Shown here piece after piece: positions 3,594 to 40,051 of a stretch of 51,909 nt of DNA (position 1 is the stretch's first letter; each line of letters begins with the position of its first letter). The position numbers and the translations under genes were made by a program. The notes under the pieces were generated by a model, which had not been told where the DNA came from, did not search any database, and worked only from the letters and a program-made list of their open reading frames with translations. This DNA is from Bacteroidota bacterium (GTDB lineage Bacteria > Bacteroidota > Bacteroidia > Flavobacteriales_F > PHOS-HE28): NCBI GenBank assembly GCA_018267055.1, contig JAFDZF010000033.1, positions 1 through 51,909 on the forward strand, given 5' to 3'.

Positions 3594-6500
3594 CTATTTC
3601 CCCGCGCGCGCCTCGCCCGCCTTCACGACCTGCACCCACTGCCCCGCGTTGCGGGCGTTCACGGTGTTGTCGTACATGGCGGAGCAGGTGGTGCCCGGCA
3701 GGTAGAAGCGTCCGGTGTACGCCGCATTGAGCAGCACGCGGTAGGTCGCTTGCTGGCGCGCGTACAGGTCGAAGTAGGTCATCACGCGGTCGTCCCGGAT
3801 GTCCTGGTGCTCGAAGGGGCTGTTGGCCTGGGCGCTTTCGGTGCCTTCCAAGCGGCTGTTGCGGATCTCCCAGCCGCTGGGGAAGACCTGCGTGAGGGCC
3901 AGCTCCTGGTAGTTGCCGCGGATGCCGGGGTGCTGGATGGTGACCACGGCCTGGAAGTCGGTGCCTTGCTCCAGGCGTGCCGGGTCCAGCGGCTTGCCGT
4001 CCATGGTCCGGTAACGCACGTCGATGGCGAGGCCGTTGCTGGCGGAGCGCTCTTCCCCGGGCATGGGGGTGCCGGTGCGCACCGTGCGCACGTACAGCAG
4101 GTTCTTGCCGGTGTTGGTCACCGCCACCTTCTTCCTGCCGTCCGGGGTGGGCAGGTCCACGCGGGCGATGGCTTTCTGGCTCATGCGTTCCTCGCTCTTG
4201 CCGTCCACGGTGAGGGTGAAGTGCATGGCCTTGTCGAGGGCGTTGTCGGCGGCCAGGCGGCTGACGGCGAGGAGGGCCCAGGCGGTGCTCTGGGTGCTGT
4301 ACCAATCACCGCCGCTCAGGCGCTCCGCGATGCGCTTGATCACGATGGCGGCGTTGGTGCGGTCGTCCACGCGCAGGAGGGCCTCGGCGATGATGGCCTC
4401 GTCGCGCAGGTCGCTGCCGTAGGTCCAGGCCATCTCGTTGTAGGGCGCCACGGTGGTGGCCAGGCCGGTGATGATCTCCTTGGCCACGTCCTTGCGGTTG
4501 TTCAGGGCGAAGGCGGCGGCGAGCATCCACTTCGCTTCGGCGGCGAGCTTGGGCGTGGTGCGGAGGCGGTTCATGGCGCCGGCCTCGGCGGCATTGGCCA
4601 GGGCGAGCACGTAGAGGCGGTAGGCCTGCGCGAGCTGCGAGCCGCGGTAGGTCCAGCCGTCGGCCTCCGCGGGCATCCAGTTGCGGGCGGCGGTGCGCTC
4701 GTAGCTGAGCCAGTTCGCCTTCATGCCGCTGGGCAGCGTGAAGCCTTGGCGCTCGGCCTCCACGATGAAGTGGCCCACGTAGGTGGAGGACCAATCGTCG
4801 GAGCCGCGCTCACCGGGCCAGTAGCTGAAGCCGCCGTTGGCCACCTGGAACTGCTTCAGGCGGCGCAGGCCGGCCTCCACATTGCCGCGCATGGCCTGCG
4901 CGGTGCGGTCGTTCACGTCCACCACGCTCGCGAGGAAGAGCTGCGGGAAGGCCTTGCTCGTGGTCTGCTCCACGCAGCCGTGCGGGTAGTCGATCAGGTA
5001 CTGCAGCCGGCGGCCCAGGTCCACCGGCGGGATGGTACTGATCTCCAGGTAGGCGCTGTTGGTGCCCATCACGCCCACCGGGGCGGGCGTGTCCTCCCAC
5101 GACCGGCCGGCGTCCACCACGCCCTCGGCCACGTCGGTCTGGGGCTGGTTGGCCTGCCGCACGTCCAGCTCGATGGTCTGCGTGGCGCGCTCACCGGCGC
5201 CTTCGGCGATGAGCTTCACCTTGCCCACGCCGATGCGCTCCTTCATCTTCACGCGGAAGGCGGTCACCTGGTCGCCGGTGGTGGCGAAGGTGAGGGCCTG
5301 GCTGGCCGGGCCTTCCACGGTGAAGAGGTCATTGGCCTCCAGGCGCAGCTGCACGTTCTTCACCTTGGGGTCCATGGCGAACACGGTCACGGGCAGGTCC
5401 ACGGATTCGCCCGGGCCCACCACGCGGGGCAGCGTGGCCAGCAGCATCAGCGGCTTGCGCACGGGCACGGCCTTCTCGGCGCTGCCATAGGCGCGGGCGC
5501 CGTCGTTGGCCACCACCATGATGCGCACGCTGCCCACGTAGTTGCTGATGGTGAAGGTGTGCGAGGCCTTCTTGCCGCGGGCCAGCTTGAAGGGCCCCAC
5601 GAAGCGCACCACCGGCTTGAAGCGGTTGGCCTTCGCGGCGTCGGCGGGCGAGGCCTGGTCGCTGCCGCCGATCGCCAGCACGCGCTGCAGCTGGCGGCCG
5701 AACGCCCCGATCACCTGGTCGTACAGGTCCCAGGTACGCACGCCCAGGGCCTCGCGGGCGTAGAAGTAGTTCCACGGATCGGGCGTCCGGAAGCGGGTGA
5801 GGTCCAGCAGCCCTTCGTCCACGATGGCGAGCGTGTAGGTCATCGCCTCGCCGTTCTTCTCGCCCACCTGCACGGTGAACGGCTCATCGGTCTTGAACTC
5901 CTTGGCGGCCGTGATCTCCGGCGCGAGGTGCGAGCCGGGGTCCTCCACCAGGATGGGGATCACGCCGTACATCCGGATGGGCAGGTCGTTCGCCGTGCCG
6001 ATGCCGGTGGCCGCGTCGGTCTCCTTCGGGGCCGTGAGCGCATGCGGCTGCACCAGGGTGACGTGCGCGTAGACGTTCGGTGCCATGTCGGCGGTGATGG
6101 GGAAGTTGAACTTCGTCTCCTTCGCCGTCAGGTCGATCCATTTCGCCTCCAGGATGCGGCTGCCCGTCTCCAGGCTCACCAGGGCGCGTCCGGTGCCGGA
6201 GGAGGGGATGGTGAGCGTGCAGGCATCGCCCACGGCGTACTTCTCCTTGTCGCTGTTGAAGCGGAGCATGGCGGCCTCCTTCTCGCCCTGGCGGCGGCTG
6301 CGGCCTTCGTATCCCGGCCAGTCCACATAGAGCTGCGCGGCGGCCACGTGCCCGCTGCCGGGGTCGCTGAGGCGCACCACGAAGCGGCCCCAGTCCGGGC
6401 GGTCGATGCGGAACTTGAAGCGTCCCCGGCCTTTGGCATCGGTGGTGACGTCCTCGGCGCTGATCAGGCGCGAGCTCGGCGCGCTCATGTAGCTGGCCGG

Positions 6501-9239: not shown

Positions 9240-9387
9240 GGTGGGTCCGGGAAGGTTGGTGAGGGGAAGGTAAGAGGCGGTGCACAAGCAACGGGGACGC
9301 CGCCTGGGGAATTGCAGGCAGGCCTGAAAATAGGAACGTCGGGCTTCGGCAGGGACGGCCCCGTCAGAGCGTGGATCACCGGATCCC

Positions 9388-11466
9388 CTACGGCTCGTTC
9401 AGCAGGTACTCGGCATCCTCGGCGAGGATGATGCGGCCGTTCACGTCGCCCACCACGAAGGCGTCGGGGAAGCCCAGGCCCTGCAGCTCCTTGCGGGCCA
9501 CCTCGGCCGCGGCGCGGGTGGGGTAGGTGCCGTAGAAGTAGCGCACGTCGTTGGCGCCCGTCACCGGCGTCACATTGCCCAGCTCCACGTACTTGCCCAT
9601 GGTCTCCATCGGCACGTTGCCGGCGAAGGTGCCCACCTGCACGCGGAACACGATGGCGTCCTTGCGGATGGAGCCCGCGGGCAGCGACTTCAGGTCCTCC
9701 GGCACCGAGAGCTGCGCGCCCGCTTCCTTCAGCGATACGCGCTTGCCGCCCTTGAACGCGGTGAGGAAGGCGCCGTTGAAGCCCTTCAGCAGCATCTCCA
9801 CCTTGTAGCGCGCGGCCTCGTTCACGTCGGTGAAGGCGCCGGCGTAGTAGCGCGTGAGGCCGTCGCTGCCCTTCACCGTCACCACGTCGGGGATGCCGTG
9901 GAAAATGTTCTCGGCCAGCTTGTGGCGGAAAGCCCCCAGCTGCACGCGGATCACCGTGCGGGTGTCGTTCGGGTCGAGCTCGGGGATGCCGCTGTGCGTG
10001 CCTTCGGCGGAGCGCTGCTTCCCGTCCGGCGCTTCCACGATGCGGCCGTCCTGCTCCATCATCACCTTGCCATTGAAGCCCTGGCCCTTCAGGGCGAGCT
10101 CGCGGCGGAGGGCCTCGGGCAGCTCATCGTAGTCGCCCACCACGTAGTAGGTGGTGTCGTTCCGCTCGATGGTGCGCACGTCGGGCAGGCTGAGGATCTT
10201 CTGGATCATCTCGTCGCTGATGCCTTCCATCTGCGAGCCCACTTGCACCATGTAGGTCCGCTTCGAGGCGTCCGACGGGCGGGTGGTCTTCGGCTTGCCC
10301 ACGGGACCGAACGATTCCACGCGGCTGCTGACGAGGGTCACGTTCGCGGAGTCCTTGTAGTTGAGCCAGGCCCTCAGCTGGTCCGCATCGCTGAGCGATA
10401 CGCCGCGCTCATCCACGGGCGTGCCGGGCGGGGTGTTCGCCTCGTCGTCGCGGTAGTTGGGCACGCCGTCGCCGTCGTCGTCCAGCGGGCAGCCGTTCGC
10501 GTCCACGGGCACGCCGGCGGGCGTGTGGGGGCATTTGTCGCTCCAGTCCATCACGCCGTCGCCGTCCTCGTCCTCGTTCATGGCGATGGCGTCCATCTGC
10601 TCGGGCGTGAGCGTAGGCTTGAAGCGTTTCTTCTTCTCCTTGTTGATGTCGAAGGCGTAGCCGATGGAGAAGGAGGAGAAGAGGAAGCGGTCGTTGCTGC
10701 CGTCGCCCTTGCGGGCGCCCACGCTCGCATCGGTCACGCCGTCCAGCAGGTCGGTGCGCGTGAAGTGCATGGTGGTGGCGAAGCGCGCGTCGAAGCCGTT
10801 GCCCAGGCACATCTTCACGCCCACGCCCACGGGGATGGCCCAGGTGCGCTCGGTGTACTTGCCGAAGCCGTCCAGATTCGATTCCCGGATGTCGCTCTCG
10901 TAGGTGTAGTCGCGCTGGATCTCCACGGCGTCGGCGGCGTTGGGCGCGTTCTCGGGCAGGTCGCGGATGGTGCCGTCGCTCCAGTAGTTGTAGCGGCGGC
11001 CCTGCGCGTCGAAGAGGTCGGTCTTGCTCAGGAATTCCACGCTCTCGAAGCCCACGGTGACGAAGGGCTCCACGAGGTGGCCGGGCTTGAGCAACTGATT
11101 GAAGTTGTAGGTGAACAGCAGCCCGCCGGTGGTGATGCGCGATTCGAAGTTGAGGTTGCGCGTGAGGCTGCGCTCATTGGCGCCCAGGCGGCCGTGCACC
11201 GCGAAGAGGCCCACCTCCAGCCAGTCGGTCACCGGCGTGGTGGCGCGCACCTCGAAGCCCACGCGCGTCACCAGCGGGCTGTAGCCCTTGTGCTTGGAGC
11301 CGATGTCGCCGTAGAAGGCGAACATGCCCGTGCCGAGGGCGAAGGTGGGGCGGAGGAGGATGCGCGCGGTGTCCTGCTGCGCCCGCGCAGGCGATGCCCC
11401 GCACACCAGCAGCGCGGCCGCCAGGGCCAGGGTGCCGAAGGGGCGGGGCGGTGCCGGTACGTGCAT
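9388..11466 (-). CDS. Outer-membrane-type protein with TSP3 repeats and three SPOR domains
   Basis: The 692-residue product has a signal peptide (MHVPAPPRPFGTLALAAALL, cleavage near ARAQ). Residues about 30-290 alternate aromatic and polar residues like an outer-membrane beta-barrel. Calcium-binding thrombospondin type 3 repeats follow (about 299-360: DEDGDGVMDWSDKCPHTP, then DDDGDGVPNYRDDE). The C-terminal half carries three SPOR-like domains (about 400-475, 500-580 and 602-685), each opening with a VQVG or VQLG strand. TSP3 linkers usually join a barrel to an OmpA peptidoglycan-binding domain; here SPOR domains, which bind denuded peptidoglycan, appear to take that role. It lies 148 nt from the alpha-2-macroglobulin gene and 24 nt downstream of another SPOR-like gene, so it is probably in an operon with the latter. 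Confidence 0.8.
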   Translation of the reverse strand: MHVPAPPRPFGTLALAAALLVCGASPARAQQDTARILLRPTFALGTGMFAFYGDIGSKHKGYSPLVTRVGFEVRATTPVTDWLEVGLFAVHGRLGANERSLTRNLNFESRITTGGLLFTYNFNQLLKPGHLVEPFVTVGFESVEFLSKTDLFDAQGRRYNYWSDGTIRDLPENAPNAADAVEIQRDYTYESDIRESNLDGFGKYTERTWAIPVGVGVKMCLGNGFDARFATTMHFTRTDLLDGVTDASVGARKGDGSNDRFLFSSFSIGYAFDINKEKKKRFKPTLTPEQMDAIAMNEDEDGDGVMDWSDKCPHTPAGVPVDANGCPLDDDGDGVPNYRDDEANTPPGTPVDERGVSLSDADQLRAWLNYKDSANVTLVSSRVESFGPVGKPKTTRPSDASKRTYMVQVGSQMEGISDEMIQKILSLPDVRTIERNDTTYYVVGDYDELPEALRRELALKGQGFNGKVMMEQDGRIVEAPDGKQRSAEGTHSGIPELDPNDTRTVIRVQLGAFRHKLAENIFHGIPDVVTVKGSDGLTRYYAGAFTDVNEAARYKVEMLLKGFNGAFLTAFKGGKRVSLKEAGAQLSVPEDLKSLPAGSIRKDAIVFRVQVGTFAGNVPMETMGKYVELGNVTPVTGANDVRYFYGTYPTRAAAEVARKELQGLGFPDAFVVGDVNGRIILAEDAEYLLNEP

Positions 11467-11490
11467 CCGGGGAGAGTTAGCCGCGTGCGA

Positions 11491-12870
11491 TCACTGCGCC
11501 CACTTCTGGTTGCTGATCATCAGCGCCTCCTGGACGGTGATGCGCTCGCCGTTGTTGTAGGCGGTGACGAAGGGGCCCGGGAAGTTGTAGTTGGCGGCGA
11601 TGTACGACTGGCGGGTATCGCGCGCGGCGCGGTACTCGGTGAAGCGGCCGGTGACGTATTTGATCCAGCCCTCGTGGCGCTCGATGCTGAAGTCGCCGCT
11701 GTAGTGGTGGCGCTCCACGAAGTAGGGGCTGCCCACCTCGCGGTGCGCGGCGCTGATCTGCACCTTATAGGTGACGCCGGTCTCGGGCGTGGGGATGCGG
11801 GTGGTGGTCTTCGGCCGCTGTGCCTGGGCGGTTACGGGCTCCGTGGCGGGCTTGGGCTCCGCCTTCGGCTGTTCGGTCTTCGGGGCGGACACCGGGGCGG
11901 GCGTGGGCGTCACCGCGGCCACCTGCGGCTGGAGCGCCTGCAGCGCACGTGCGCCGGTGAAGAAGGTGGTGCTGCCCACCACGGCCTTCTGCGTCTCGTC
12001 GTTCAGGAGGTAGCCGAACTCGCCGTTCACCGTGTACTCGCCTTCGGGCTGGCCATTGGCGCGCAGCTCGTACGATACCTTCAGCTCGTTCTGCGCGGGC
12101 AGGTTCAGCCACACGAACTTGGCGATGCGGTCCTGGGCGGTGAAGATGGCCTCGGAACTGCTCTTCTCCACGGCGGAGAACCCGGCGGGGAGCGTCTCCT
12201 GCAGCTTGCCGAAGCCGCGCAGCGCACCTTTGCTCACCGTCACTTCCACCAGCATCTCGGTGGCGGAGAGCGGCGTGATGGTGCGTTTGGCGGAGACCCC
12301 GCCGGCACCTTGCATGGGCGCGATGGCGGCCGTGCTCAGGGCCACGTCCAGGGCGGCGGCGGGAGCGGCACCGGCGGCGGTGGCCAGGTCGTTCGCGTTG
12401 GCGGGCTCGGTCGGCGTGGGCGTGGAAGCGTCCTGCGCCATGGCCCCGCCGGTGATCGTCACCGTGCTCGGGGCGAGGTCCTTCGTCTTGCGCTCATTGT
12501 CCTCGATGTAGGAGAACTTGCCGGTGATGGGCAGGCTGCCGGTGGCGGCGGCGGAAGCGCTGAGCGTGTAGCTCACCTTGAACTGCGGCTGCGAGGGCAG
12601 GGCCATCCAGATGAACTTGGCCTTGCCCTCGGCGAAGGTGAACGAGGCGCCCTTGGTCTCGATCGCGCTCGCGCTCAGTCCTTCGGGCAGGTCGATCTGC
12701 AGCTTCGCGAAGCCCGAGACCTGGTCCTTGTTGATCGTCACCGTCACCTTCACCTCGCTGTTGGGCGCCATGGTGGCGGGAGCGTCCTGCGTGATGCTGA
12801 TGTCGGAGAGGAAGAACAGGTCGAACAGGAAGAGTCCGGCCAGGTTGAGCAGGGAGAAAAGCTTGATCAT
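11491..12870 (-). CDS. Envelope protein with duplicated beta domain and C-terminal SPOR-like domain
   Basis: The 459-residue product begins MIKLFSLLNLAGLFLFDLFF, a hydrophobic signal or anchor; the frame runs 28 codons further upstream without a signal, so this start is preferred. Two homologous beta-rich units follow. Unit 1 (about 25-135) contains VTVTINKDQVSGFAKLQIDL and FIWMALPSQPQFKVSYTL; unit 2 (about 190-300) contains VEVTVSKGALRGFGKLQETL and FVWLNLPAQNELKVSYEL. They look cohesin- or Ig-like, but I cannot name the family. An Ala/Pro/Thr/Lys-rich linker leads to a C-terminal domain opening TYKVQISAAH, which resembles SPOR. The neighbouring gene also encodes SPOR domains, suggesting a shared role at peptidoglycan. 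A TAGTTTTG element lies 26 nt upstream of the start. Confidence 0.65.
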   Translation of the reverse strand: MIKLFSLLNLAGLFLFDLFFLSDISITQDAPATMAPNSEVKVTVTINKDQVSGFAKLQIDLPEGLSASAIETKGASFTFAEGKAKFIWMALPSQPQFKVSYTLSASAAATGSLPITGKFSYIEDNERKTKDLAPSTVTITGGAMAQDASTPTPTEPANANDLATAAGAAPAAALDVALSTAAIAPMQGAGGVSAKRTITPLSATEMLVEVTVSKGALRGFGKLQETLPAGFSAVEKSSSEAIFTAQDRIAKFVWLNLPAQNELKVSYELRANGQPEGEYTVNGEFGYLLNDETQKAVVGSTTFFTGARALQALQPQVAAVTPTPAPVSAPKTEQPKAEPKPATEPVTAQAQRPKTTTRIPTPETGVTYKVQISAAHREVGSPYFVERHHYSGDFSIERHEGWIKYVTGRFTEYRAARDTRQSYIAANYNFPGPFVTAYNNGERITVQEALMISNQKWAQ

Positions 12871-12896
12871 GGGCAGGGCTTCGCGTGAGGTACGGG

Positions 12897-12904
12897 CAAA
12901 ACTA
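12897..12904 (-). promoter_or_regulatory. -7 element TAGTTTTG before the duplicated-domain gene
   Basis: TAGTTTTG on the minus strand ends 26 nt before the ATG at 12870 and matches TAnnTTTG, so the two SPOR-type genes probably form their own transcription unit. Confidence 0.5.
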
Positions 12905-12980
12905 TCCGCGTGCCTTGCGGCGATCAAGCCGTGCGGCGGGGCATCTTCCAACACACGCGTGTTGAGAGCGGCGTGGGAAA

Positions 12981-30230: not shown

Positions 30231-31400
30231 ATGCTGCGATCCATGGCCCTCTGGGCGGCCCTTTCCCTGGGCCTCTGCGCCGCCGCGCGTGAGCCGGACG
30301 TGCGCGTGGGACTGCTGCGCGACATCACCACCCGCCAGGTGATGGTGATGGGCAGCCACGGGCCGCTCACGATCCTCGCCGACGGCCGGAACGTGGGCGA
30401 GCTGGGCAGCAACGACGGGCTGAAGCTGGAGTGCACGCCGAACGGCATCGTCGGGAAATCCTTGAGCCTGGCGCTCTCCGCCAAGCGCACCCTCACCCTG
30501 CGCTCGCCCAACGGCCGCGGCTTCCGCCTGCGCTCGCTCGGCCCGCAGACGCAGGAGCGCACCTATCCGGGCGCGTCGCTCGAGGTGCAGCGCGTGGGCG
30601 ATGCCTTCCAGCTGGTGGCCGTGGTGCCGCTGGAGGAGTACGTGGGCGGCGTGGTGCAGAGCGAGGCCGGCAAGGACAAGGCCCCCGAGTACTACAAGCT
30701 GCAGGCGGTGAGCTGCCGCACCTACGCCCTGGCCAACCTGCGCCGCCACGCGGGCGAAGGCTTCTCCGTGTGCGACGGCACGCACTGCCAGGTGTTCCTG
30801 GGCCGCTGTACGCTGGACACCATCAAGCAGGCCGTCACCGCCACGCATGACATGGTGGTGGTGGACGCGGGCATCCGCCTCATCCACGCCACCTTCCACA
30901 GCAACTGCGGCGGCGAGACGATGAACGCGGAGGACCTCTGGAGCAAGAGCGAGCCCTACCTGGTGAGCACGTTGGACACCTTCTGCCTCCATGCCCCGCA
31001 CGCCATCTGGCAGCAGCGCATGCCGCGTACGCAATGGCTGGGCTACCTGAAGAAGAACTACGGCGTCGACACCGGCGATCCCCGCGTGGTGGCCTCCGTC
31101 ACCGAGCACGACCCCGCCTGCCGCGAGCTCTACCTGGGCAACATCCCGCCTTACGTTCCGCTGGCGAAAGTGCGCACCGACCTCAAGTTGAACTCCACCT
31201 ACTTCCGCATCCACGGCGAAGGCGACCAGGTGGTGTTCGAGGGCCGCGGCTTCGGCCACGGCATCGGGCTCTGCCAGGAAGGGGCCATGCGCATGGCGCG
31301 CGCCGGCTACCCGTTCACCGACATCCTGCACCACTACTTCGCCGAGGTGCACCTGGTGGACCTGAAGACGATCGATTTCTTCCGCGACGAAGGGCGGTAG
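30231..31400 (+). CDS. SpoIID/LytB domain protein
   Basis: The 389-residue product has a short signal peptide (MLRSMALWAALSLGLCAAA). The SpoIID domain shows VVPLEEYVGGVVQSEAG (catalytic Glu region), KLQAVSCRTYALAN, FHSNCGGETMNAEDLW and the C-terminal GRGFGHGIGLCQEGAMRMA. Characterised SpoIID is a lytic transglycosylase acting on stem-peptide-free peptidoglycan during sporulation; non-spore-formers such as Bacteroidota have homologues of unclear role. Residues 20-110 form an extra N-terminal domain. It is convergent with the GNAT gene; a 7-bp palindrome at 31418-31432 lies in the 51-nt gap. Confidence 0.9.
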   Translation: MLRSMALWAALSLGLCAAAREPDVRVGLLRDITTRQVMVMGSHGPLTILADGRNVGELGSNDGLKLECTPNGIVGKSLSLALSAKRTLTLRSPNGRGFRLRSLGPQTQERTYPGASLEVQRVGDAFQLVAVVPLEEYVGGVVQSEAGKDKAPEYYKLQAVSCRTYALANLRRHAGEGFSVCDGTHCQVFLGRCTLDTIKQAVTATHDMVVVDAGIRLIHATFHSNCGGETMNAEDLWSKSEPYLVSTLDTFCLHAPHAIWQQRMPRTQWLGYLKKNYGVDTGDPRVVASVTEHDPACRELYLGNIPPYVPLAKVRTDLKLNSTYFRIHGEGDQVVFEGRGFGHGIGLCQEGAMRMARAGYPFTDILHHYFAEVHLVDLKTIDFFRDEGR

Positions 31401-31451: not shown

Positions 31452-31946
31452 TCAGCGATCGACGCGGTACACGTGGGCTCCTGCGTGGTCGCCTGCCTGC
31501 TCCACCTTCCAGAAGCGGCCGCCGTTCTTCTCGATCACGCGCCGGCTGGCCTGGTTGTCCGGGTGGATCGTGGAGATGACGAACGGAACGTCGTGCTCGC
31601 CGAAGGCCAGTTCCAGCATCAGGCGCACCGCGCGGGTGGCGTAGCCCTTTCCCCAGTGCTCGCGCAGCAGGCGATAGCCCATCGCGGTGCCACCCGCCCC
31701 GTTCCGCAGGCTGCAGCGGCCCACCCAGGTGCCATCCTCCGCTTCGATGGCCCAGCGGCCGATGCCATCGGGCAGGCTCCGGGGGATGTCCATGATCCAT
31801 TGCGTGGCCGCTGCCTGGTCGGCGAACGGAGCGTCGTGCACGAACCGCAGCACCTCCGGATCCTCATTGAGGCGCAGGATCCACGCAGCATCACCGGGAC
31901 CCAACGGCCGAAGCCGCAGGCGAGGGAGGAGGTCCGTCCGATCCAT
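31452..31946 (-). CDS. GNAT N-acetyltransferase, RimJ/RimL-like
   Basis: The 164-residue product starts MDRTDLLPRLRLRPLGPGDA, followed by GNAT elements: WAIEAEDGTWVGRCSLRN, the acetyl-CoA loop LLREHWGKGYATRAVRLML and ISTIHPDNQASRRVIEKNGG. This arrangement fits RimJ/RimL-type transferases, which acetylate protein N-termini, amino acids or small molecules. The open frame runs 40 codons upstream through the rRNA methyltransferase relic, which is not part of this gene; a TACCTTCG element 5 nt before the chosen ATG supports the start. The gene diverges from the truncated methyltransferase copy, and before the rearrangement it probably diverged from the intact gene. Confidence 0.88.
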   Translation of the reverse strand: MDRTDLLPRLRLRPLGPGDAAWILRLNEDPEVLRFVHDAPFADQAAATQWIMDIPRSLPDGIGRWAIEAEDGTWVGRCSLRNGAGGTAMGYRLLREHWGKGYATRAVRLMLELAFGEHDVPFVISTIHPDNQASRRVIEKNGGRFWKVEQAGDHAGAHVYRVDR

Positions 31947-31951
31947 GTGCG

Positions 31952-31986: not shown

Positions 31987-32119
31987 TTTCCGCCGGTCCA
32001 CCTTCGCGGCCCATGCGCGACCGGCTGTACATCGACGACACCCGCCAACGGATTCGGCAGGGCCATCCGTGGGTCTATGACAACCAGGTATTGCGCTTCG
32101 AGGGGCGGCCGCAGCCCGG
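31987..32119 (+). repeat. Left 133-bp direct repeat (5' end of rRNA methyltransferase)
   Basis: This segment is identical to 36688-36820 except at 3 positions, with no gaps. It includes the leader, the -7 region and the first 36 codons of the rRNA methyltransferase gene. Identity ends abruptly inside a codon at 32119/36820. Confidence 0.95.
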
Positions 32120-32132
32120 TGTTCAGTGGTAG
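32013..32132 (+). pseudogene. Truncated 5' copy of the RlmI-family methyltransferase gene
   Basis: The 39-codon fragment begins MRDRLYIDDTRQRIRQGHPW and follows the intact gene at 36714 to RPQPG, then switches to GVQW and a stop. Both coding differences from the intact copy are silent third-position changes (ATT/ATC for Ile, TAT/TAC for Tyr). The catalytic methyltransferase domain is absent, leaving only part of the PUA-like N-terminus, so it cannot be an enzyme. The -7 element reads CACCTTCG here against TACCTTCG in the intact copy. Confidence 0.9.
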
Positions 32133-32268
32133 GCGTGGTGGCCCCTTGTATGGCCTGGAAGTGTATAGGAATACGGAATTCTTGGTAGAAGTCTAACGAT
32201 CGATTGCCATGCTTGATCTATCTTTAGATCGCTCCCACGGTCGTCCGCGTCGTGTCCACACGCTTAAG

Positions 32269-33270
32269 ATGGTACGAACGATCCTCCGAAGCACGGCTTG
32301 CACCGCCCTCGCGGTGATCGCCATCCTGGCCCGGGCCCAGAACTTGGTGCCGAACCCGGGCTTTGAAGAGTACACAGAATGTCCATCGATCTACGGCGAG
32401 TTGTTCAAGACAAATGACTGGTTTGCGGCATTCGTAAGTCCTGAATACTACAACTCGTGCGATACAAGCGATATCGTCGGAGTTCCAAATAACATGTTCG
32501 GGTTCCAGCAACCTGCGACCGGTGCTGCATATACAGGTATCTGGAGCTACTCGAATGGCGATCCTGGGTTCGGCTTGCATGAGGTCATGGGTGTTCATTT
32601 GCCACAGCCTTTGGTCGTCGGTCAGACTTACTGGGCATCGTTCAAGGCGAGTTGGACCTCGGGTTATCCCTTCTTGGACGCGATGGTGAAATATGCTTCG
32701 AACAACTTGGGCATATTGTTGAGCATGGATTCGCTCAGCGGGGAAGGCGATTGGCTGCCATGGCCGAACAGAGCGCATATCCATACGGAACAGATCATCA
32801 CGGATTCAATAGAGTGGACGACGATCGCGGGTCAGTTCGTGGCAGACTCAGCCTATCGCTATCTCTATGTTGGGAATTTCTTTGGCGATGACCAGACAGA
32901 AGCGATTATCATGCAGCCGGATGCGGATGAAGTAGGCTACTATTATATCGATGACGTCTGCTTGTCGGCCACACCTACGTTCTGCCCGGTCGCGACGAGC
33001 GTCGGAGAGAGTGCTCAGGGCAGTTCATTCTGCGCACACTGGGATGTTCCTGCTCATGCATTGCTGGTCAGCGGGTTGCCGGCTGGAAATTACAGATCAA
33101 CATTGTTCGATGCGGCCGGCCGTGTAACCGCAGAGGCCTTATTGAACAGCAATGGGCAGCGGGAAGAGGTGGCGATCGATATCGATCCCAAGGGCATGGG
33201 CATGTTCATCCTGCGTATCCAAGGCGGTGGGCATGCATGGCATTACAAACTAGTGCCACTGGTGCGATGA
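32269..33270 (+). CDS. Secreted 'VPNPSFEEYTxC' family protein, first tandem copy
   Basis: The 333-residue product starts MVRTILRSTACTALAVIAIL with signal cleavage after ARAQ; the frame continues 20 codons upstream without a signal. The mature part opens NLVPNPGFEEYTECPS and runs on as a beta-rich domain (GVPNNMFGFQQPATGAAYTG, YYIDDVCLSATPTFC) of a type often found in Bacteroidota surface proteins, probably a carbohydrate-binding-like jelly roll. The last 80 residues (ALLVSGLPAGNYRSTLFDAA ... WHYKLVPLVR) look like a divergent T9SS tail. Apart from the signal sequence, the gene is much less GC-rich than the genome. It is 1,125 bp from its paralogue and the same length. Confidence 0.82.
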   Translation: MVRTILRSTACTALAVIAILARAQNLVPNPGFEEYTECPSIYGELFKTNDWFAAFVSPEYYNSCDTSDIVGVPNNMFGFQQPATGAAYTGIWSYSNGDPGFGLHEVMGVHLPQPLVVGQTYWASFKASWTSGYPFLDAMVKYASNNLGILLSMDSLSGEGDWLPWPNRAHIHTEQIITDSIEWTTIAGQFVADSAYRYLYVGNFFGDDQTEAIIMQPDADEVGYYYIDDVCLSATPTFCPVATSVGESAQGSSFCAHWDVPAHALLVSGLPAGNYRSTLFDAAGRVTAEALLNSNGQREEVAIDIDPKGMGMFILRIQGGGHAWHYKLVPLVR

Positions 33271-33393
33271 CATGGTGCCCGGGATCGTATAGGAATGCGC
33301 TATCCTTGGTCGGAACGTAATGCCCGCTGCCCAATGTCCGCTCTAGCTTCACGTTGTTCCCTCGGTCGTCCTCCTCGCGCCCGCATCCTGGAA

Positions 33394-34395
33394 ATGGTAC
33401 GAACGATCCTCCGAAGCACGGCTTGCACCGCCCTCGCGGTGGTCGCCATCCTGGCCCGGGCCCAGAATTTGGTGCCGAATCCGAGCTTCGAGGAGTACAC
33501 AGAGTGTCCTTCGTATTATGGAGAGTGGTTCAAGATTGACAACTGGTTCACCGGTTTTGCAACTCCTGATTATTTCCATATGTGCGATGGATCGGATTTC
33601 GTCGGAGTACCCCGGAACGTCTTTGGGTATCAGCAGCCCGCAACAGGGCAGGCATACTGCGGTATATGGGGCTATTCGGCAGCTGGCCCGGGGTTTGGAC
33701 TTCATGAACTGCTGGGTATCCGGCTCAACGAACCGCTGATCGTAGGAGAAACCTACTGGGCGTCCGTCAAGGTGAGTTGGACAACAGGCCATCCGTTCAA
33801 AGAGACAAATGCGGGCTTTGCTTCCAATAAACTTGGCCTGTTCTTAAGTCTGGATTCGCTTGTAGGTGAACAGGGTTGGCTGCCATGGCCTGGAGGAGCG
33901 CAGGTCTATACCGAGCAGATTATTACGGATTCAGTGGGATGGACGACCATCGCGGGCCATTTCACGGCGGACGCTCCTTACGTGTTCCTCTATGTTGGGA
34001 ATGTTTTCGGGGATGACCAGACACAGGTGATCCGAATACAGGATGGCACGGACGATTTCAGTTACTACTATGTGGATGATGTGTGTCTCTCAATGGATTC
34101 GGCTTTTTGTCCGATCGATATGGGCATTCAGGAAGCAGTGCCTATGGATCGTCCGATGGTGGCTTGGAGCGGAGTGTCCATGGCGCTCCGCGTGATGGGT
34201 GCTCAGGCGGGCATTTATGATATGCTTCTATATGACGTTGTTGGTAGACTGCTGGACCAAAGAGCTTTTGCTAGTTCCGGCTTACAAGACGATGTGCTCG
34301 TTCCCATAAGAACCAATGTTCTTGCTCCTGTCATTCTCCGCTTGCAAAGCGGTGAGCGCGAATGGCATTACAAGTTGACACCGCCAGTGCCATAA
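33394..34395 (+). CDS. Secreted 'VPNPSFEEYTxC' family protein, second tandem copy
   Basis: The 333-residue product is the paralogue of the preceding gene, exactly equal in length. Its signal peptide DNA (33394-33466) differs from the first copy at one base, whereas the mature regions have diverged considerably at the protein level. Shared landmarks are NLVPNPSFEEYTECPSYYGE, GVPRNVFGYQQPATGQAYCG, YTEQIITDSVGWTTIAGHF and YYVDDVCLSMDSAFCP. It ends in a T9SS-like tail (REWHYKLTPPVP). The frame extends 33 codons upstream, but the signal peptide fixes the start. The stop is 11 nt before the S74 gene, so the two are probably co-transcribed. Low GC as in copy 1. Confidence 0.82.
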   Translation: MVRTILRSTACTALAVVAILARAQNLVPNPSFEEYTECPSYYGEWFKIDNWFTGFATPDYFHMCDGSDFVGVPRNVFGYQQPATGQAYCGIWGYSAAGPGFGLHELLGIRLNEPLIVGETYWASVKVSWTTGHPFKETNAGFASNKLGLFLSLDSLVGEQGWLPWPGGAQVYTEQIITDSVGWTTIAGHFTADAPYVFLYVGNVFGDDQTQVIRIQDGTDDFSYYYVDDVCLSMDSAFCPIDMGIQEAVPMDRPMVAWSGVSMALRVMGAQAGIYDMLLYDVVGRLLDQRAFASSGLQDDVLVPIRTNVLAPVILRLQSGEREWHYKLTPPVP

Positions 34396-34406
34396 AAACG
34401 AGGACA

Positions 34407-36635
34407 ATGAGCAAAAAGCATGTATTGTCAGTATTGGTAGGTCTGTTCGTGGGGCAAAGTGTTGTATTGGCACAATTCGGTATAACAGGTGGCACTTATG
34501 GCCGCACGAATGCTGGTATCATTGGAGTAACCATTGGAAATATCGCCACGCCTCCGGCCCCGAACATCGGCTTCCAGGTCCGCGGCGATCTGTTGGGCAC
34601 CGGGGAGGTCTTCCGCACGGACGCGCCGTTGAACAACGATACGTACTGGCGGATGTTCTACAATGGCGGTCAGTACTTCAACATCTACAAGCTGTCCGGC
34701 AGCTCGCAGATGAACGTGAACGCCCAGCTGGGCCACCTGCTGTTCCGCACGAACGACCTGCCGCGGCTGCGGCTGAACCCCACGGGGAGCTATGGCATCG
34801 GCGCGTTCGGTGCCGCCCCGCGTGATGGGTTCCTGCTGCTGAGCGGCAAGGCGGATGCCTACACCAACACGGGCAGCCATGCGCCGTTCACCCGGCTGCA
34901 CCTGGTGGACGACACGGGTACCAACTCGCCGATCGCCTATGCGCAGGAGCTGGGGTACCGGCCGTGGATGCGCAACGGCATCACTTTCAGCGGCAACAGC
35001 GACCAGGCCTACGTCGGGCACAAGTATTTCGACCAGCCGAACGGGTCGCCGGTGGACGACAATACCGACTTCGTGATCCAATGGAGCGATAACCCCAATG
35101 GAAGCCCCTGGGGCACGGACCGCATGAAGTTCGTTTTCTCCACCACCTATGTCGCCGGGACCATCAAGGGGGCCGCCTCCTTCAACGGGCTGGAGGCCAT
35201 GCGGCTGTGGCCCAGCAGCGCGACCGCGGTGAACGTGGGCATCGGCGATTTCGCGGCGCCGGGCAGCGGCGATCCCACCGAGCGGCTGGACCTGCTGACG
35301 GGCCGCCTGCGCCTGCGCGATCTTCCCTTGAGCACAGCGGACAATACGCTGACGAGGATCATGGCGGTGGACAACACCGGGGTGGTGAAATGGCGCGACG
35401 TGAGCACCATCGTGACGCCCGGCTGCGAATGGCAGCTGTGGCCGGTGACCAACAACGTGGTGACCGCGTTCGCCGGCAACCTCCTGTGCCCGGACATCAA
35501 TGAGTTCAAGGGGGTGGGCATCGGCAATACGGGCCCGAAGGCCAAGCTGGACGTGCTCTACACCGGTTCCACCGGCGGGGGCAGCACGCTGGACGGCATC
35601 ACGGCGTTCAGCTCGTGGGTGCAGAAAAGCACGGGCAGCGGAAAGGCGGTGGTGGCCACGGCGAAGCCGGCGATGACCAACCAGTTCACCACGGGCACCA
35701 TGTACGGCACGCAGTCGAGCGCGTCCAATGCCAACTTCGCCTATGGGGTGGAGGGGAACGCGGGCAACAACAGTTCGTCCCCGGGCACGTCCACCGACCT
35801 GATGGGCGTGCGGGGCCTGGCCACGGCCAGCAACAATGCGGTGCGGTGCGTGGGCGTGTACGGCACGGCGACGGGCGCGCAAGCGGGCAACAACTGGGCG
35901 GCCTACTTCGATGGCCCTGCGTTCTGCACGGCCGGTGCCTGGACGCCGTCCGATGAGACGCTGAAGCTGGACATCCAGGAGGTGCAGGACGCATCGGCGA
36001 TCCTGGCGCAGCTGACCCCGCGCTCGTACGTGTTCAACACGGGGACCTACGGCTTCATGGGCTTCGATACGGGCCGGCACTTCGGCCTGCTGGCACAGGA
36101 GCTGGCGGAGGCGGTGCCGTCGGCGGTGACGGCGGTGACCCGCCCGGCCGATGTGGATTCCCTGGGTGCCGAGGTGAACCCGGCCGTCTCGTTCAAGGCG
36201 GTGAACTACCAGGAGCTGATCCCGCTGCTGATCGCCAGCAACAAGGAGCAGCAGGTCCGGCTGGCTGCGCAGGAAGCCCGCCTGCAACAGCTGGAGCAGC
36301 AGCTGTCGGCCTGCTGCAAGGCGGGGGGCACGCGCAGCGCGCTCCAAGAGGCCCCCACCGGGACCCCGGCGGCCGGTGATGCCCTCCGTATTGCGCCCAA
36401 TCCCTTCCAGGACCGCACCACGCTCACCTACACCGTGCCCGCCGCCGGTCAGCTGAAGCTGGAGGTCGGCACGGCCGATGGCCGCCCGCTGAAGACCTTG
36501 CGCCAGGAGGAGGCCCAGGCGGGCACCTTCACCTACGAGTGGAACACCCAAGGCCTGGCGCCTGGCACCTACTTGGTGTCGCTGCTGCTGGACGGGCGGG
36601 TGGTGGTGAAGAAGGCGGTGAAGGTGGACCGCTAG
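34407..36635 (+). CDS. T9SS protein with peptidase S74 (intramolecular chaperone) domain
   Basis: The 742-residue product starts MSKKHVLSVLVGLFVGQSVV, a signal peptide ending LAQ, preceded by AGGA 3 nt before the ATG. The body (about 30-500) is beta-rich and repetitive, like a fibre. The S74 domain spans about 512-630; it begins SDETLKLDIQEV with the Ser-Lys pair five residues apart (about 515 and 520) used for autocleavage in endosialidase chaperones, and continues FGLLAQELAEAVPSAV and VNYQELIPLLI. A short coiled coil (about 615-640) precedes a type A T9SS tail (IAPNPFQDRTTLTYTV ... VVVKKAVKVDR). Composition jumps from low to high GC near 34550, within the first 50 codons, suggesting a chimeric gene. 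Confidence 0.88.
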   Translation: MSKKHVLSVLVGLFVGQSVVLAQFGITGGTYGRTNAGIIGVTIGNIATPPAPNIGFQVRGDLLGTGEVFRTDAPLNNDTYWRMFYNGGQYFNIYKLSGSSQMNVNAQLGHLLFRTNDLPRLRLNPTGSYGIGAFGAAPRDGFLLLSGKADAYTNTGSHAPFTRLHLVDDTGTNSPIAYAQELGYRPWMRNGITFSGNSDQAYVGHKYFDQPNGSPVDDNTDFVIQWSDNPNGSPWGTDRMKFVFSTTYVAGTIKGAASFNGLEAMRLWPSSATAVNVGIGDFAAPGSGDPTERLDLLTGRLRLRDLPLSTADNTLTRIMAVDNTGVVKWRDVSTIVTPGCEWQLWPVTNNVVTAFAGNLLCPDINEFKGVGIGNTGPKAKLDVLYTGSTGGGSTLDGITAFSSWVQKSTGSGKAVVATAKPAMTNQFTTGTMYGTQSSASNANFAYGVEGNAGNNSSSPGTSTDLMGVRGLATASNNAVRCVGVYGTATGAQAGNNWAAYFDGPAFCTAGAWTPSDETLKLDIQEVQDASAILAQLTPRSYVFNTGTYGFMGFDTGRHFGLLAQELAEAVPSAVTAVTRPADVDSLGAEVNPAVSFKAVNYQELIPLLIASNKEQQVRLAAQEARLQQLEQQLSACCKAGGTRSALQEAPTGTPAAGDALRIAPNPFQDRTTLTYTVPAAGQLKLEVGTADGRPLKTLRQEEAQAGTFTYEWNTQGLAPGTYLVSLLLDGRVVVKKAVKVDR

Positions 36636-36654
36636 GTCCGTCGCCTTCCCGAGC

Positions 36655-36690
36655 GAGCGGCCGCTGGACCTCCGGCGGCCGCTCTTTTTT
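36655..36690 (+). terminator. Intrinsic terminator after the S74 gene
   Basis: A stem of about 13 bp with one mismatch (GAGCGGCCGC pairing with GCGGCCGCTC) is followed by six T (36685-36690). The T-run touches the first bases of the right 133-bp repeat at 36688. Confidence 0.85.
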
Positions 36691-36820
36691 CCGCCGGTCT
36701 ACCTTCGCGGCCCATGCGCGACCGGCTGTACATCGACGACACCCGCCAACGGATCCGGCAGGGCCATCCGTGGGTCTACGACAACCAGGTATTGCGCTTC
36801 GAGGGGCGGCCGCAGCCCGG
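36688..36820 (+). repeat. Right 133-bp direct repeat (5' end of rRNA methyltransferase)
   Basis: Partner of 31987-32119, 4,701 bp away, with 130 of 133 positions identical. This copy continues into the full gene. Confidence 0.95.
36700..36707 (+). promoter_or_regulatory. -7 element TACCTTCG of the rRNA methyltransferase gene
   Basis: TACCTTCG ends 6 nt before the ATG at 36714. The first T is C in the truncated copy (31999). Confidence 0.6.
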
Positions 36821-37886
36821 CGGCATCGTGCAGGTGTTCGACGTGAAGAAGGGGCCGCTCGGCCAGGCCTACTTCAACCCGAAGAGCAAGATCCGCGCGC
36901 GGATGATCACCAAGGACCTGGACGAGCCCATCGACGCGGCGTTCTTCGAGCGGAAGATCGCGGCGGCCTGGGCCTTCCGGAAACGCATGGGCCACACCTC
37001 CAGCTGCCGCGTGGTGTTCGGCGAGGCCGACGGACTGCCCGCGCTGGTGGTGGACAAGTTCAACGACGTGCTGGTGCTGCAGACCATGGCGCTGGGCATG
37101 GACCGGGCGAAGGACGACATCGTGCAGGCGCTGCACGCCGTGCTGAAGCCGCGCGGCATCTACGAGCGCAACGACGCGGCCGTGCGCGAGAAGGAAGGGC
37201 TGGAGCTGCGGACGGGCTTCATCGGCGAGCCGTTCGGTACGGACCTGGAGATCGAGGAGAACGGCCTGCGCATCCACGTGGACATCGCCGGCGGGCAGAA
37301 GACCGGCCACTTCCTGGACCAGCGGCTGAACCATGCGGCCATGACGCGGATCAGCCACCAGGCGCGCGTGCTGGACTGTTTCACGCATACCGGCGGCTTC
37401 GCGCTGCACGCGGCGAAGTACGGCGCCAGGGAGGTGCTGGGCATCGACATCAGCGAGGACGCGGTGGCGGTGGCGCGCCGCAACGCGGCGCTCAACGGGC
37501 TCGATCCCCGCTGCGGGTTCAAGGCGGCCAACGTGTTCGATTTCCTCACCGACGCGAGCAAGCGCGGCCTGCTGTGGGACGTCATCGTGCTGGACCCGCC
37601 CTCGTTCGCCAAGAACCGCGGGGCCTTGGAAGGCGCCACGCGCGGCTACAAGGAGATCAACCTGCGCGCGATGAAGTGCCTGCCGCCGGGCGGCTTCCTC
37701 GTCACCTGTTCGTGCAGCCAGCACATGACGCCCGACCTGTTCCGGGCCATGGTGGCGGAGGCCGCGCGTGACGCGCACCGCGAGCTGCGCGAGGTGTACT
37801 ACGGCACCCAGCCGCCCGATCACCCCATCCACTGGGCCATCCCGGAGACGCTCTACCTGAAGTGCCTGGTGCTGCAGGTGCTGTAG
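36714..37886 (+). CDS. rlmI: Class I SAM-dependent rRNA cytosine-C5 methyltransferase, RlmI family
   Basis: The 390-residue product has the RlmI/YccW layout: an N-terminal PUA-like domain (residues 1-70), a middle beta domain (GEADGLPALVVDKFNDVLVL) and a Rossmann methyltransferase domain with ENGLRIHVDIAGGQKTGHFL, VLDCFTHTGGFALHAAKYG (motif I), EVLGIDISEDAVAVARRNA (motif II), VIVLDPPSFAKNRGALE (motif IV, PPSFAK) and GGFLVTCSCSQHM (motif VI, catalytic Cys region). E. coli RlmI methylates 23S rRNA C1962; the same target is inferred. Its first 36 codons are duplicated at 32013. Confidence 0.9.
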   Translation: MRDRLYIDDTRQRIRQGHPWVYDNQVLRFEGRPQPGGIVQVFDVKKGPLGQAYFNPKSKIRARMITKDLDEPIDAAFFERKIAAAWAFRKRMGHTSSCRVVFGEADGLPALVVDKFNDVLVLQTMALGMDRAKDDIVQALHAVLKPRGIYERNDAAVREKEGLELRTGFIGEPFGTDLEIEENGLRIHVDIAGGQKTGHFLDQRLNHAAMTRISHQARVLDCFTHTGGFALHAAKYGAREVLGIDISEDAVAVARRNAALNGLDPRCGFKAANVFDFLTDASKRGLLWDVIVLDPPSFAKNRGALEGATRGYKEINLRAMKCLPPGGFLVTCSCSQHMTPDLFRAMVAEAARDAHRELREVYYGTQPPDHPIHWAIPETLYLKCLVLQVL

Positions 37887-37918: not shown

Positions 37919-40051
37919 GTGTCCGCTCCAACGCCGCCGGTCCGAGATACGGAACGGATGTCCGGGAGCGGGACCTTCAAGAGCGCATGGCTGCGCGCGC
38001 CCATGCTGCGGGCGGCACTGCCGTTCATCGGCGGGCTGCTGGTCGGCCGGTCGGGGACGCTTCCCGTTCCGGTCGCCTGGGGGATGGTGATCGCCGGCGC
38101 GGCAGCATGGGTGTTCCTCGCCTACCGGCGTACGGACTTCGCCCACCGCTGGTGGCGCGGTGCCGCACTGGTACCGATGCTCTTCGCCTTCGGCCTGCTC
38201 TGGCAGCGGCTGCACACGCCCGAGGAGCACGTGGATGATGTGGCCCGGTATCCGGAAGCGGACGGATGGCGGGCCGCGGTGCTGGAGGTCGCCTCATCGA
38301 ACGCCCGCACGGTGCGCCTCTGGACCCGGGCGGATGCCGCCTTCATCGCGGGGAAGGCCCGGCCGGTCAGCGGCCGCCTGCTGCTGACGCTGCTGCTCGA
38401 CAGCGCAGGCCCGGTGCCGGCCATCGGTGACCGGCTGCTGGTGGACGCCGCGGCCTTGCCGCTGCAGCGCGTGCCCGACCCGGGCGGTTTCGACCAGGCC
38501 GCCTGGGCGCGGAGCTATGGCGTCACCCACGGCTGCTTCGCCCCGGCGGGCCGGTGGCGCATCGCGGAGCGGGCGAGCGGATGGGCGGCCTGGTTCGAAG
38601 GCGCGCGCCGGCAGGTGTCGGCCTGGCTGGTGCGCTCCGGACTTCCCGATCGGGAGCGGGCATTGGCGAAGGCGGTCCTGCTCGGCCTCCGGGATGAGCT
38701 GGACGCCGACCAGCGGGCGGCGTTCGCGCGCAGCGGCACCATGCACGTGCTGGCCGTGAGCGGCAGCCACGTGGGCCTCATCTATGCCGCCTTCCTCTGG
38801 GGCCTGGCGTTCCTGGGCCGGAAGCCCGGGGCACGGTGGGGGCGGGGCCTCCTCATCCTGGCGGCGCTGTGGGCCTATGCGGGGCTCACGGGCCTGACGC
38901 CGTCGGTGCTGCGGGCCACGGTCACCTTCTCCGTGTTCACGCTGGCCGAGATGCTCCGCCGCCGCACCGAGCCGCTCAACAGCCTGGCGCTCTCCGCCTT
39001 CGTCCTGCTGCTCTGGGATCCCGGGATGCTCGTGCAGCTGGGCTTCCAGCTGTCGTTCCTCGCCGTGCTCGGCATCGCGCTGTTCTACCGGCCGCTCGTG
39101 CAGGCGTGGACGCCGCCCCATGCCGTCGCGGCCTTCTTCTGGTCGCTGTTCGCGGTGAGCCTGGCGGCGCAGGCCTTCGCCACGCCCTTGTCGCTGCTGG
39201 TGTTCCAGGCGTTCCCCACATGGTTCCTGCCGGCCAACATGGTCATCGTCGGCCTGGTGTCGCTCGGGGTCTACGGCGGCGCGCTGCTGGTGGCGGTGCA
39301 TGCGGTGCCGGTGCTCGGGCCGTTGATGACCTTCGCCCTGGAAGCCCTGCTGCGCCTGCTCGGCGGCGCATCGGCCTTCTTCGCCGACGCGCCCGGCGCC
39401 TACCCGGCCGTGCGCATCGATGCCGCGCAGTGCCTGGGCCTTTATGCCTTGCTGCTTCTCCTGGCGGCGTGGTGGTTCCAGCGGTGGTGGTGGGCGCGCC
39501 AGGGTGGCCTGGTCGTCCTGCTGGCGCTGCTCCTCTCGTGGGGATGGTCGGCGCGGGTGCACCGGGACCAGCGGCAGTTCGTCGTTTACGACGACCGCAA
39601 GGCGTTGGCCTGTGCGTTCGTGGAAGGCCGATCGATGGCGGTGTTCGCCGAGCGGCCCGATGCCTACCTGGTGCGCCGGGTGGAGCAGCACCGGCGGGCG
39701 GTGGGCGTGGAGCACGTGGTGCGCGTGGACAGCATCCCGGGCCGGGTCGATGCTCAGGGGACGTGCCTCCTCTTCTTCTCCGATGGCCTTCCTCCCACGG
39801 TGCCAGCGGACCCTGCGGTCACCACCGTCTGCATCGTGCGCGGCGGCTCGCCCGCGGGTACGTTCGGCGAAGGCCGGCCACCGGGAATGCTCCAAGTGGT
39901 GCTGGCGCCCGGGATCCGCGGCCGGCAGCGCGAGGCGTGGCGGCGGTGGTGCGCGGCGGAAGGCGTGCCGCTCCACGACGTGCGGGCCGATGGTGCCTAT
40001 GTTCGCTGCGATGATCGTGGAGACCGTCCGGTGGCGGCGCGTGGACGATGA
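37919..40051 (+). CDS. comEC: ComEC/Rec2-family DNA uptake channel
   Basis: The 710-residue polytopic membrane protein has an N-terminal DUF4131-type region (first helices LRAALPFIGGLLVGR and WGMVIAGAAAWVFLAY, then an OB-like soluble part), followed by the Competence domain with signature MHVLAVSGSHVGLIYAAFLW and GLTPSVLRATVTFSVFTLAE, and about ten membrane helices in all. The C-terminal soluble segment (about 555-710) has no metallo-beta-lactamase motif, as is usual in Bacteroidota homologues. ComEC transports single-stranded DNA across the inner membrane in natural transformation. The start is GTG at 37919 or ATG at 37958. The 3' end overlaps the Rieske gene by 41 nt. Confidence 0.88.
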   Translation: MSAPTPPVRDTERMSGSGTFKSAWLRAPMLRAALPFIGGLLVGRSGTLPVPVAWGMVIAGAAAWVFLAYRRTDFAHRWWRGAALVPMLFAFGLLWQRLHTPEEHVDDVARYPEADGWRAAVLEVASSNARTVRLWTRADAAFIAGKARPVSGRLLLTLLLDSAGPVPAIGDRLLVDAAALPLQRVPDPGGFDQAAWARSYGVTHGCFAPAGRWRIAERASGWAAWFEGARRQVSAWLVRSGLPDRERALAKAVLLGLRDELDADQRAAFARSGTMHVLAVSGSHVGLIYAAFLWGLAFLGRKPGARWGRGLLILAALWAYAGLTGLTPSVLRATVTFSVFTLAEMLRRRTEPLNSLALSAFVLLLWDPGMLVQLGFQLSFLAVLGIALFYRPLVQAWTPPHAVAAFFWSLFAVSLAAQAFATPLSLLVFQAFPTWFLPANMVIVGLVSLGVYGGALLVAVHAVPVLGPLMTFALEALLRLLGGASAFFADAPGAYPAVRIDAAQCLGLYALLLLLAAWWFQRWWWARQGGLVVLLALLLSWGWSARVHRDQRQFVVYDDRKALACAFVEGRSMAVFAERPDAYLVRRVEQHRRAVGVEHVVRVDSIPGRVDAQGTCLLFFSDGLPPTVPADPAVTTVCIVRGGSPAGTFGEGRPPGMLQVVLAPGIRGRQREAWRRWCAAEGVPLHDVRADGAYVRCDDRGDRPVAARGR

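Follow-up and report, generated by a model that had tools for sequence, protein, structure and literature searches.

An exported-protein cassette flanked by a dead stub and a full copy of one housekeeping gene, and the recurrence of this scar, suggest integrase-free spread anchored in a neighbouring gene

Many variable regions of bacterial genomes lack an integrase, and the route by which genes enter them is unclear (PMC5635113). The locus described here raises this question for a single case: how did a three-gene exported-protein cassette come to lie between a dead 5′ fragment of a housekeeping gene, rlmI, and the intact copy of that gene? The locus lies in a window (the whole stretch of DNA analysed) of 51,909 nucleotides, from a genus of uncultured Flavobacteriales known through metagenome bins.

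The cassette at rlmI and its empty site

The features of the locus are as follows:

30231–31400, + strand: SpoIID-family gene, the original left neighbour of rlmI (Pfam SpoIID, 8.7e-18)
31452–31949, − strand: GNAT acetyltransferase gene (Pfam Acetyltransf_3, 1.3e-30)
31987–32119, + strand: left repeat copy, with the −7 box region and rlmI codons 1–36; resident, now dead
32013–32132, + strand: rlmI stub of 39 codons, translated as MRDRLYIDDTRQRIRQGHPWVYDNQVLRFEGRPQPGVQW and a stop
32269–33270, + strand: exported protein A (SecA), with a signal peptide, a CBM-like beta-sandwich and a T9SS-type C-terminal domain; the open reading frame opens at 32209
33394–34395, + strand: exported protein B (SecB), tandem paralogue of A; the open reading frame opens at 33295
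34407–36635, + strand: S74 (endosialidase-chaperone) protein with a T9SS sorting domain (Pfam S74, 7.4e-12)
36655–36690, + strand: terminator hairpin and T-run of the S74 gene (fold z −5.4)
36688–36820, + strand: right repeat copy, joined to intact rlmI
36714–37886, + strand: intact gene for an RlmI-type 23S rRNA methyltransferase (390 aa), the insertion target
37919–40051, + strand: comEC (DNA-uptake channel), the conserved right neighbour of rlmI (Pfam Competence, 1.1e-56; synteny)

The two copies form a direct, ungapped repeat of 133 nt with three mismatches (left/right: 31999 C/T, 32054 T/C and 32078 T/C), reproducing exactly the coordinates given in the initial annotation. A gapped alignment extended the repeat weakly to 150 columns at 94.7% identity (E 2e-63). 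The genome search proposed at that stage was run and found the pair to be unique, with no further copy in the rest of the 3.86-Mb genome. Translation and profile matches agreed with the earlier reading of the left copy as a dead fragment and the right copy as the full gene; intact rlmI matched the NCBIfam RlmI models at 4e-96 but below their cut-off, and matched Pfam Methyltrans_SAM and PUA_3. The right copy starts within the T-run of the S74-gene terminator. The left copy retains the upstream context, the GNAT gene and then spoIID, and is therefore taken as the original gene start.

Both coding mismatches are synonymous (Ile14 and Tyr22), in keeping with the silent differences reported previously. 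Codon 14 is ATC in relatives and ATT in the left copy, and the −7 box is TACCTTCG in relatives and CACCTTCG in the left copy; two of the three differences are thus derived in the dead left copy, while the third could not be polarised. It had been suggested that one copy came from a diverged allele. A donor allele is possible, but simple decay of the dead copy would explain the left-derived changes equally well.

Between the copies lie two tandem secreted-protein genes and an S74/T9SS gene, as had been described, and no recombinase was found among them (open reading frames, Pfam). The cassette likewise contained no transposase (Pfam), and the window no tRNA or Rfam family. SecA and SecB are working labels, unrelated to the SecA translocase. 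Their genes, which likely start at 32269 and 33394, encode proteins that are 57% identical. The 300-nt 5′ regions at 32217–32516 and 33342–33641, which include part of the leader, are 77% identical, and the pair therefore probably arose by tandem duplication. The SecA model (pLDDT 86) resembled CBM families 16, 4 and 61 in Foldseek (E about 3e-6, TM on target 0.57–0.65), while the C-terminus of the family matches T9SS sorting domains, with a profile match to the PDB T9SS C-terminal domain 8glj. The S74 protein gave profile matches to TIGR04183 (5.6e-6) and to a PHROG tail fibre (7e-16). The GC content of the two Sec genes is 54%, compared with 67% for the window; the S74 gene has 47% in its first 150 bp and 67% in the remainder, which suggests that it is itself a mosaic. 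Every one of the 45 genus genomes encodes SecA-like proteins many times over, and such proteins were also present in 159 of the 295 class genomes sampled; within the genus a Sec gene is often followed by an S74 gene. A phage carrier was also considered and is unsupported, since viral contigs held no relative of the Sec or S74 genes.

The empty site sought by the initial annotation was found: spoIID directly adjoins rlmI in six relatives (G024, G011, G005, G034, G010 and G014), and surE-lpxB-spoIID-rlmI-comEC is the ancestral order. In 20 relatives, up to 10 kb of sequence to either side of rlmI contained neither a Sec nor an S74 gene, and none of these genomes proved to be a donor with the cassette beside rlmI. 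The other cargo that the initial annotation proposed to look for at the same repeat was not seen near rlmI in these 20, nor did any long repeats of the same kind bracket cargo around rlmI in relatives. The GNAT gene had no match at the spoIID-rlmI junction in the relatives' loci; as it is absent from those with the empty site, further DNA may also have entered at this junction. Empty hisS-hutH sites were found for a second bracketed cassette. Separately, window positions 3616–12953 align at about 73–74% to the right flank of another Sec-S74 cassette (L151, G002), and the window may therefore hold the empty site of that cassette near 3600.

Recurrence of the scar

We collected 77 Sec-S74 cassettes across the genus and compared their flanks. 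Eight of them, in six genomes and including the window, were bracketed at their edges by direct repeats of about 110–200 bp:

Window: 133–150 bp
L125 (G024): 161 bp
L207 (G020): 112 bp
L211 (G019): 132 bp
L133 (G004): 187 bp
L135 (G004): 148 bp
L136 (G004): 200 bp
L159 (G061): at least 125 bp, from an intergenic terminator

The repeat sequence was different at each of the eight loci and in seven was taken from the adjacent gene, with identities between copies of 87.5–99.5%. The hisS copies are 12.5% apart and both have diverged; in rlmI and in part of hisS it is the dead copy that holds the unusual changes. Of the 48 cassettes with complete flanks, 6 were bracketed, whereas among 20,000 random intervals this happened twice; the test was set up after the first sighting, one genome, G004, supplied three of the eight cases, and the other 42 fully flanked cassettes had no repeat. 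A total of 25 repeat pairs of such size and spacing were present in 1.84 Mb, eight of which bracket cassettes, the remainder lying mostly inside cassette arrays or between paralogues. Other pairs, for example at L218, L187 and, for the Sec genes, L149, were rejected as brackets because they look like paralogous tandem genes.

Further brackets came from a scan of 420 kb of G004, in which gene names are from reading the sequences. A copy of the 3′ end of hsdS (225/201 bp) surrounds four small genes, and an OmpA/PD40-like gene has a 266-bp copy (89.5%) of its 3′ end bracketing a block in which HsdM- and HsdS-like genes occur. One of these non-Sec cargoes, going by those names, would be a type I restriction system. 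The two blocks, with brackets of 200–266 bp, are:

G004:C1:278938–283041 (L233–L234)
G004:C1:352905–362823 (L237–L238)

In G062 (L201, contig C1), three copies of an aldehyde-dehydrogenase gene segment are separated by a 339-aa gene and a Sec gene, with repeats of 800 bp and 148 bp; the dehydrogenase gene seems to have been used twice as a target. Across all these cases, repeat lengths range from 112 to 266 bp, with one of 800 bp.

The repeat edges cluster where the target gene ends. Among the eight 3′-end cases, six (L125, L133, L135, L211, hsdS and OmpA-like) have their edge at the stop codon or no more than about 14 nt from it; the L207 and L136 repeats run 38 and 68 nt beyond it. The left end of the cargo lies 7–12 nt before a GCAGGGTC...GACCCTGC hairpin in L125, L135, L136, L207 and the S74 target of L153, and in two pairs (L207/L132 and L136/L133) the first nucleotide is identical at different targets. 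No significant left-end hairpin was found at the window, L159 or L211. A genome-wide search for the motif gave mostly chance matches outside cassettes, and none in the window's genome. The right ends share nothing, and similarity between cassette copies ends at the S74 stop codon. In the leaders of L133, L135 and L136, an 8-bp unit (AGGCCACA or AGGCCAAC) is repeated in long runs that separate the hairpin-promoter region from the Sec gene.

A related arrangement occurs in about 18 of the 77 cassettes, where units of a Sec gene plus an S74 5′ fragment stand upstream of a full S74 gene (L122/L123, L128, L130–L133, L148, L153, L170–L172, L189–L191, L204 and L212). The final 140 bp of the fragment in L153, and the final 161 bp of that in L124, are 97–99% identical to the downstream full gene. 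In L153 the S74 5′ ends differ and the chimeric S74 gene reads through in frame; the succession of S74 fragment, new Sec gene and in-frame chimera indicates that the right join follows homology. These arrays have the same topology as the bracketed cassettes, with S74 in the role of anchor gene. Arrays of CBM-like and S74 genes with displaced S74 5′ ends look like a surface-diversification system.

Models of integration

The data show the repeat, the empty sites, the recurrence of the scar across targets and cargoes, the gene-end edges and the reproducible left ends. The empty sites and the recurrence support the proposal in the initial annotation of an insertion that preserves the target gene on one side of the cassette and leaves a fragment of it on the other. 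The shared scar suggests integrase-free spread through recombination anchored in the neighbouring gene. In the best explanation, to which we give a probability of about one half, trimmed donor DNA carrying the cargo and a gene stub became circular and entered the chromosome through a single homologous crossover in the target gene. The proposed steps run as follows. A donor fragment would have carried the exported-protein operon with the 5′ end of an rlmI allele attached to it. The fragment would have been trimmed at its ends, those bearing a hairpin to about 10 nt from it, and then closed end to end. A single homologous crossover within the shared rlmI stub would insert the closed fragment, so that resident rlmI persists as a stub to the left of the cargo while a full gene is restored to its right. 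The same scar could be produced by another route, in which a linear fragment undergoes a one-sided homologous exchange plus an illegitimate join (HFIR). The circularisation, the trimming at hairpins and the donor are what we infer; that the hairpin-proximal left ends mark stopping points of trimming is a guess.

Integration of this kind requires RecA and DNA uptake or transfer, and the illegitimate join in HFIR has unspecific ends, often with microhomology. In Escherichia coli, one-sided homology gave mostly partial target duplications, of 109–950 bp in 14 sequenced clones, an outcome attributed to degradation of the DNA ends followed by re-circularisation and a single crossover (PMC3240628). 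The scars described here are likewise partial duplications of a neighbouring gene, variable in size, with homology stopping at or close to the gene end in six of the eight 3′-end cases. The single-crossover model fits because the repeats vary in length above 100 bp, the edges lie at gene ends, the cargo is diverse and no recombinase is present. Edges at stop codons are expected if donor and recipient are homologous only as far as the end of the gene; they are not favoured by a random staggered cut, although selection for intact genes would help. Several observations count against the model: no donor turned up within 10 kb of rlmI in 20 relatives, the left end in the window lacks a hairpin, 42 of the 48 fully flanked cassettes have no repeat, the two exact left-end pairs show more precision than random breakage predicts, and the polarity of the differences would fit the decay of a true target duplication equally well.

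The precision of the left ends is the reason why an element with a long target duplication keeps a minority share of the weight. Such a non-autonomous mobile element, which we consider rather unlikely, would have a hairpin at its left end, a loose right end, an enzyme acting in trans and a target-site duplication of about 110–270 bp; the five left junctions close to a hairpin, the nucleotide-identical left ends at different targets, and the unusual changes in the dead copy of rlmI and part of hisS are all in its favour. It does not sit well with repeats that vary from 112 to 266 bp (one of 800), with edges clustered at stop codons, with the same scar around cargoes outside the Sec-S74 family, or with the window, L159 and L211, whose left ends have no significant hairpin. 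Nor was there a transposase or a shared right end; of the hallmarks of a transposon or insertion sequence, neither two defined ends nor a constant duplication length was observed. The further proposal of a new class of non-autonomous mobile cassette in Bacteroidota is doubtful; here a trans-acting enzyme would recognise the hairpin at the left end of an exported-protein operon, and insertion at gene edges would produce target duplications of 110–270 bp, long enough to spare the gene that was hit.

A one-off rearrangement unrelated to the other bracketed cassettes, in which tandem duplication of an rlmI-S74 segment was followed by deletion, could yield a direct repeat with the full gene on one side, and the S74 gene is indeed a GC mosaic. 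This account is improbable given that the cargo is single copy, low in GC in its Sec genes and absent from the relatives' site, and that the same scar surrounds related cassettes. The analogy drawn in the initial annotation was with integrative elements; applied to rlmI, a site-specific element would target the 5′ end of the gene and provide a new one. The topology, intact gene on one side and stub on the other, is the same, but the cassette lacks a recombinase, related cassettes lie in unrelated genes with unrelated repeats, and no relative has cargo at the 133-bp repeat. With no recombinase, a different repeat sequence each time and variable lengths, the insertions have no common attachment site, and this explanation is very unlikely and largely refuted. 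We give slightly less credence still to a misassembly that joined the loci of two strains within a metagenome bin. The window makes up one of the 203 contigs of its assembly; the same structure, however, occurs in assemblies of 4 and 7 contigs (G004 and G024), and the two copies of the repeat can be told apart at three sites and lie in distinct, sensible flanks.

Comparison with known systems

The case in the window is one member of a recurrent pattern, whose mechanism lies between two testable models. The precise, hairpin-proximal left ends raise a testable question, exonuclease trimming versus a new enzyme.

Integrative elements that restore a gene end, such as islands at tRNA or guaA ends, also leave the gene intact on one side and a fragment on the other; the cassettes described here differ in having no integrase, no shared attachment site and many targets. 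In the orphan-module arrays of Rhs and CDI systems, displaced gene fragments with a partner gene stand beside one full gene, as in the S74 arrays, but in Rhs the 3′ tips are displaced, whereas here it is the S74 5′ ends, with an upstream CBM-like partner.

The trimmed, re-circularised DNA and HFIR products of the laboratory study resemble the present scars in placing foreign DNA beside a partially duplicated gene, at sizes of 109–950 bp (PMC3240628). Such products are known as a rare laboratory result, where we infer a recurrent natural route here; classical HFIR more often gives deletions, and reproducible hairpin-proximal left ends are a feature of the present cassettes. Finally, statistical evidence exists for integrase-free hotspots of horizontal transfer that are driven by recombination in the core genes on either side (PMC5635113). 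They share with the present cases variable cargo between core genes, the lack of a recombinase and homology in the flanking genes, but the model for them is a double crossover, which leaves no scar, whereas here a partial copy of the flanking gene stays behind. Such a readable scar, a 110–270-bp stub of a neighbouring gene, would let gene entries be found, polarised and counted.
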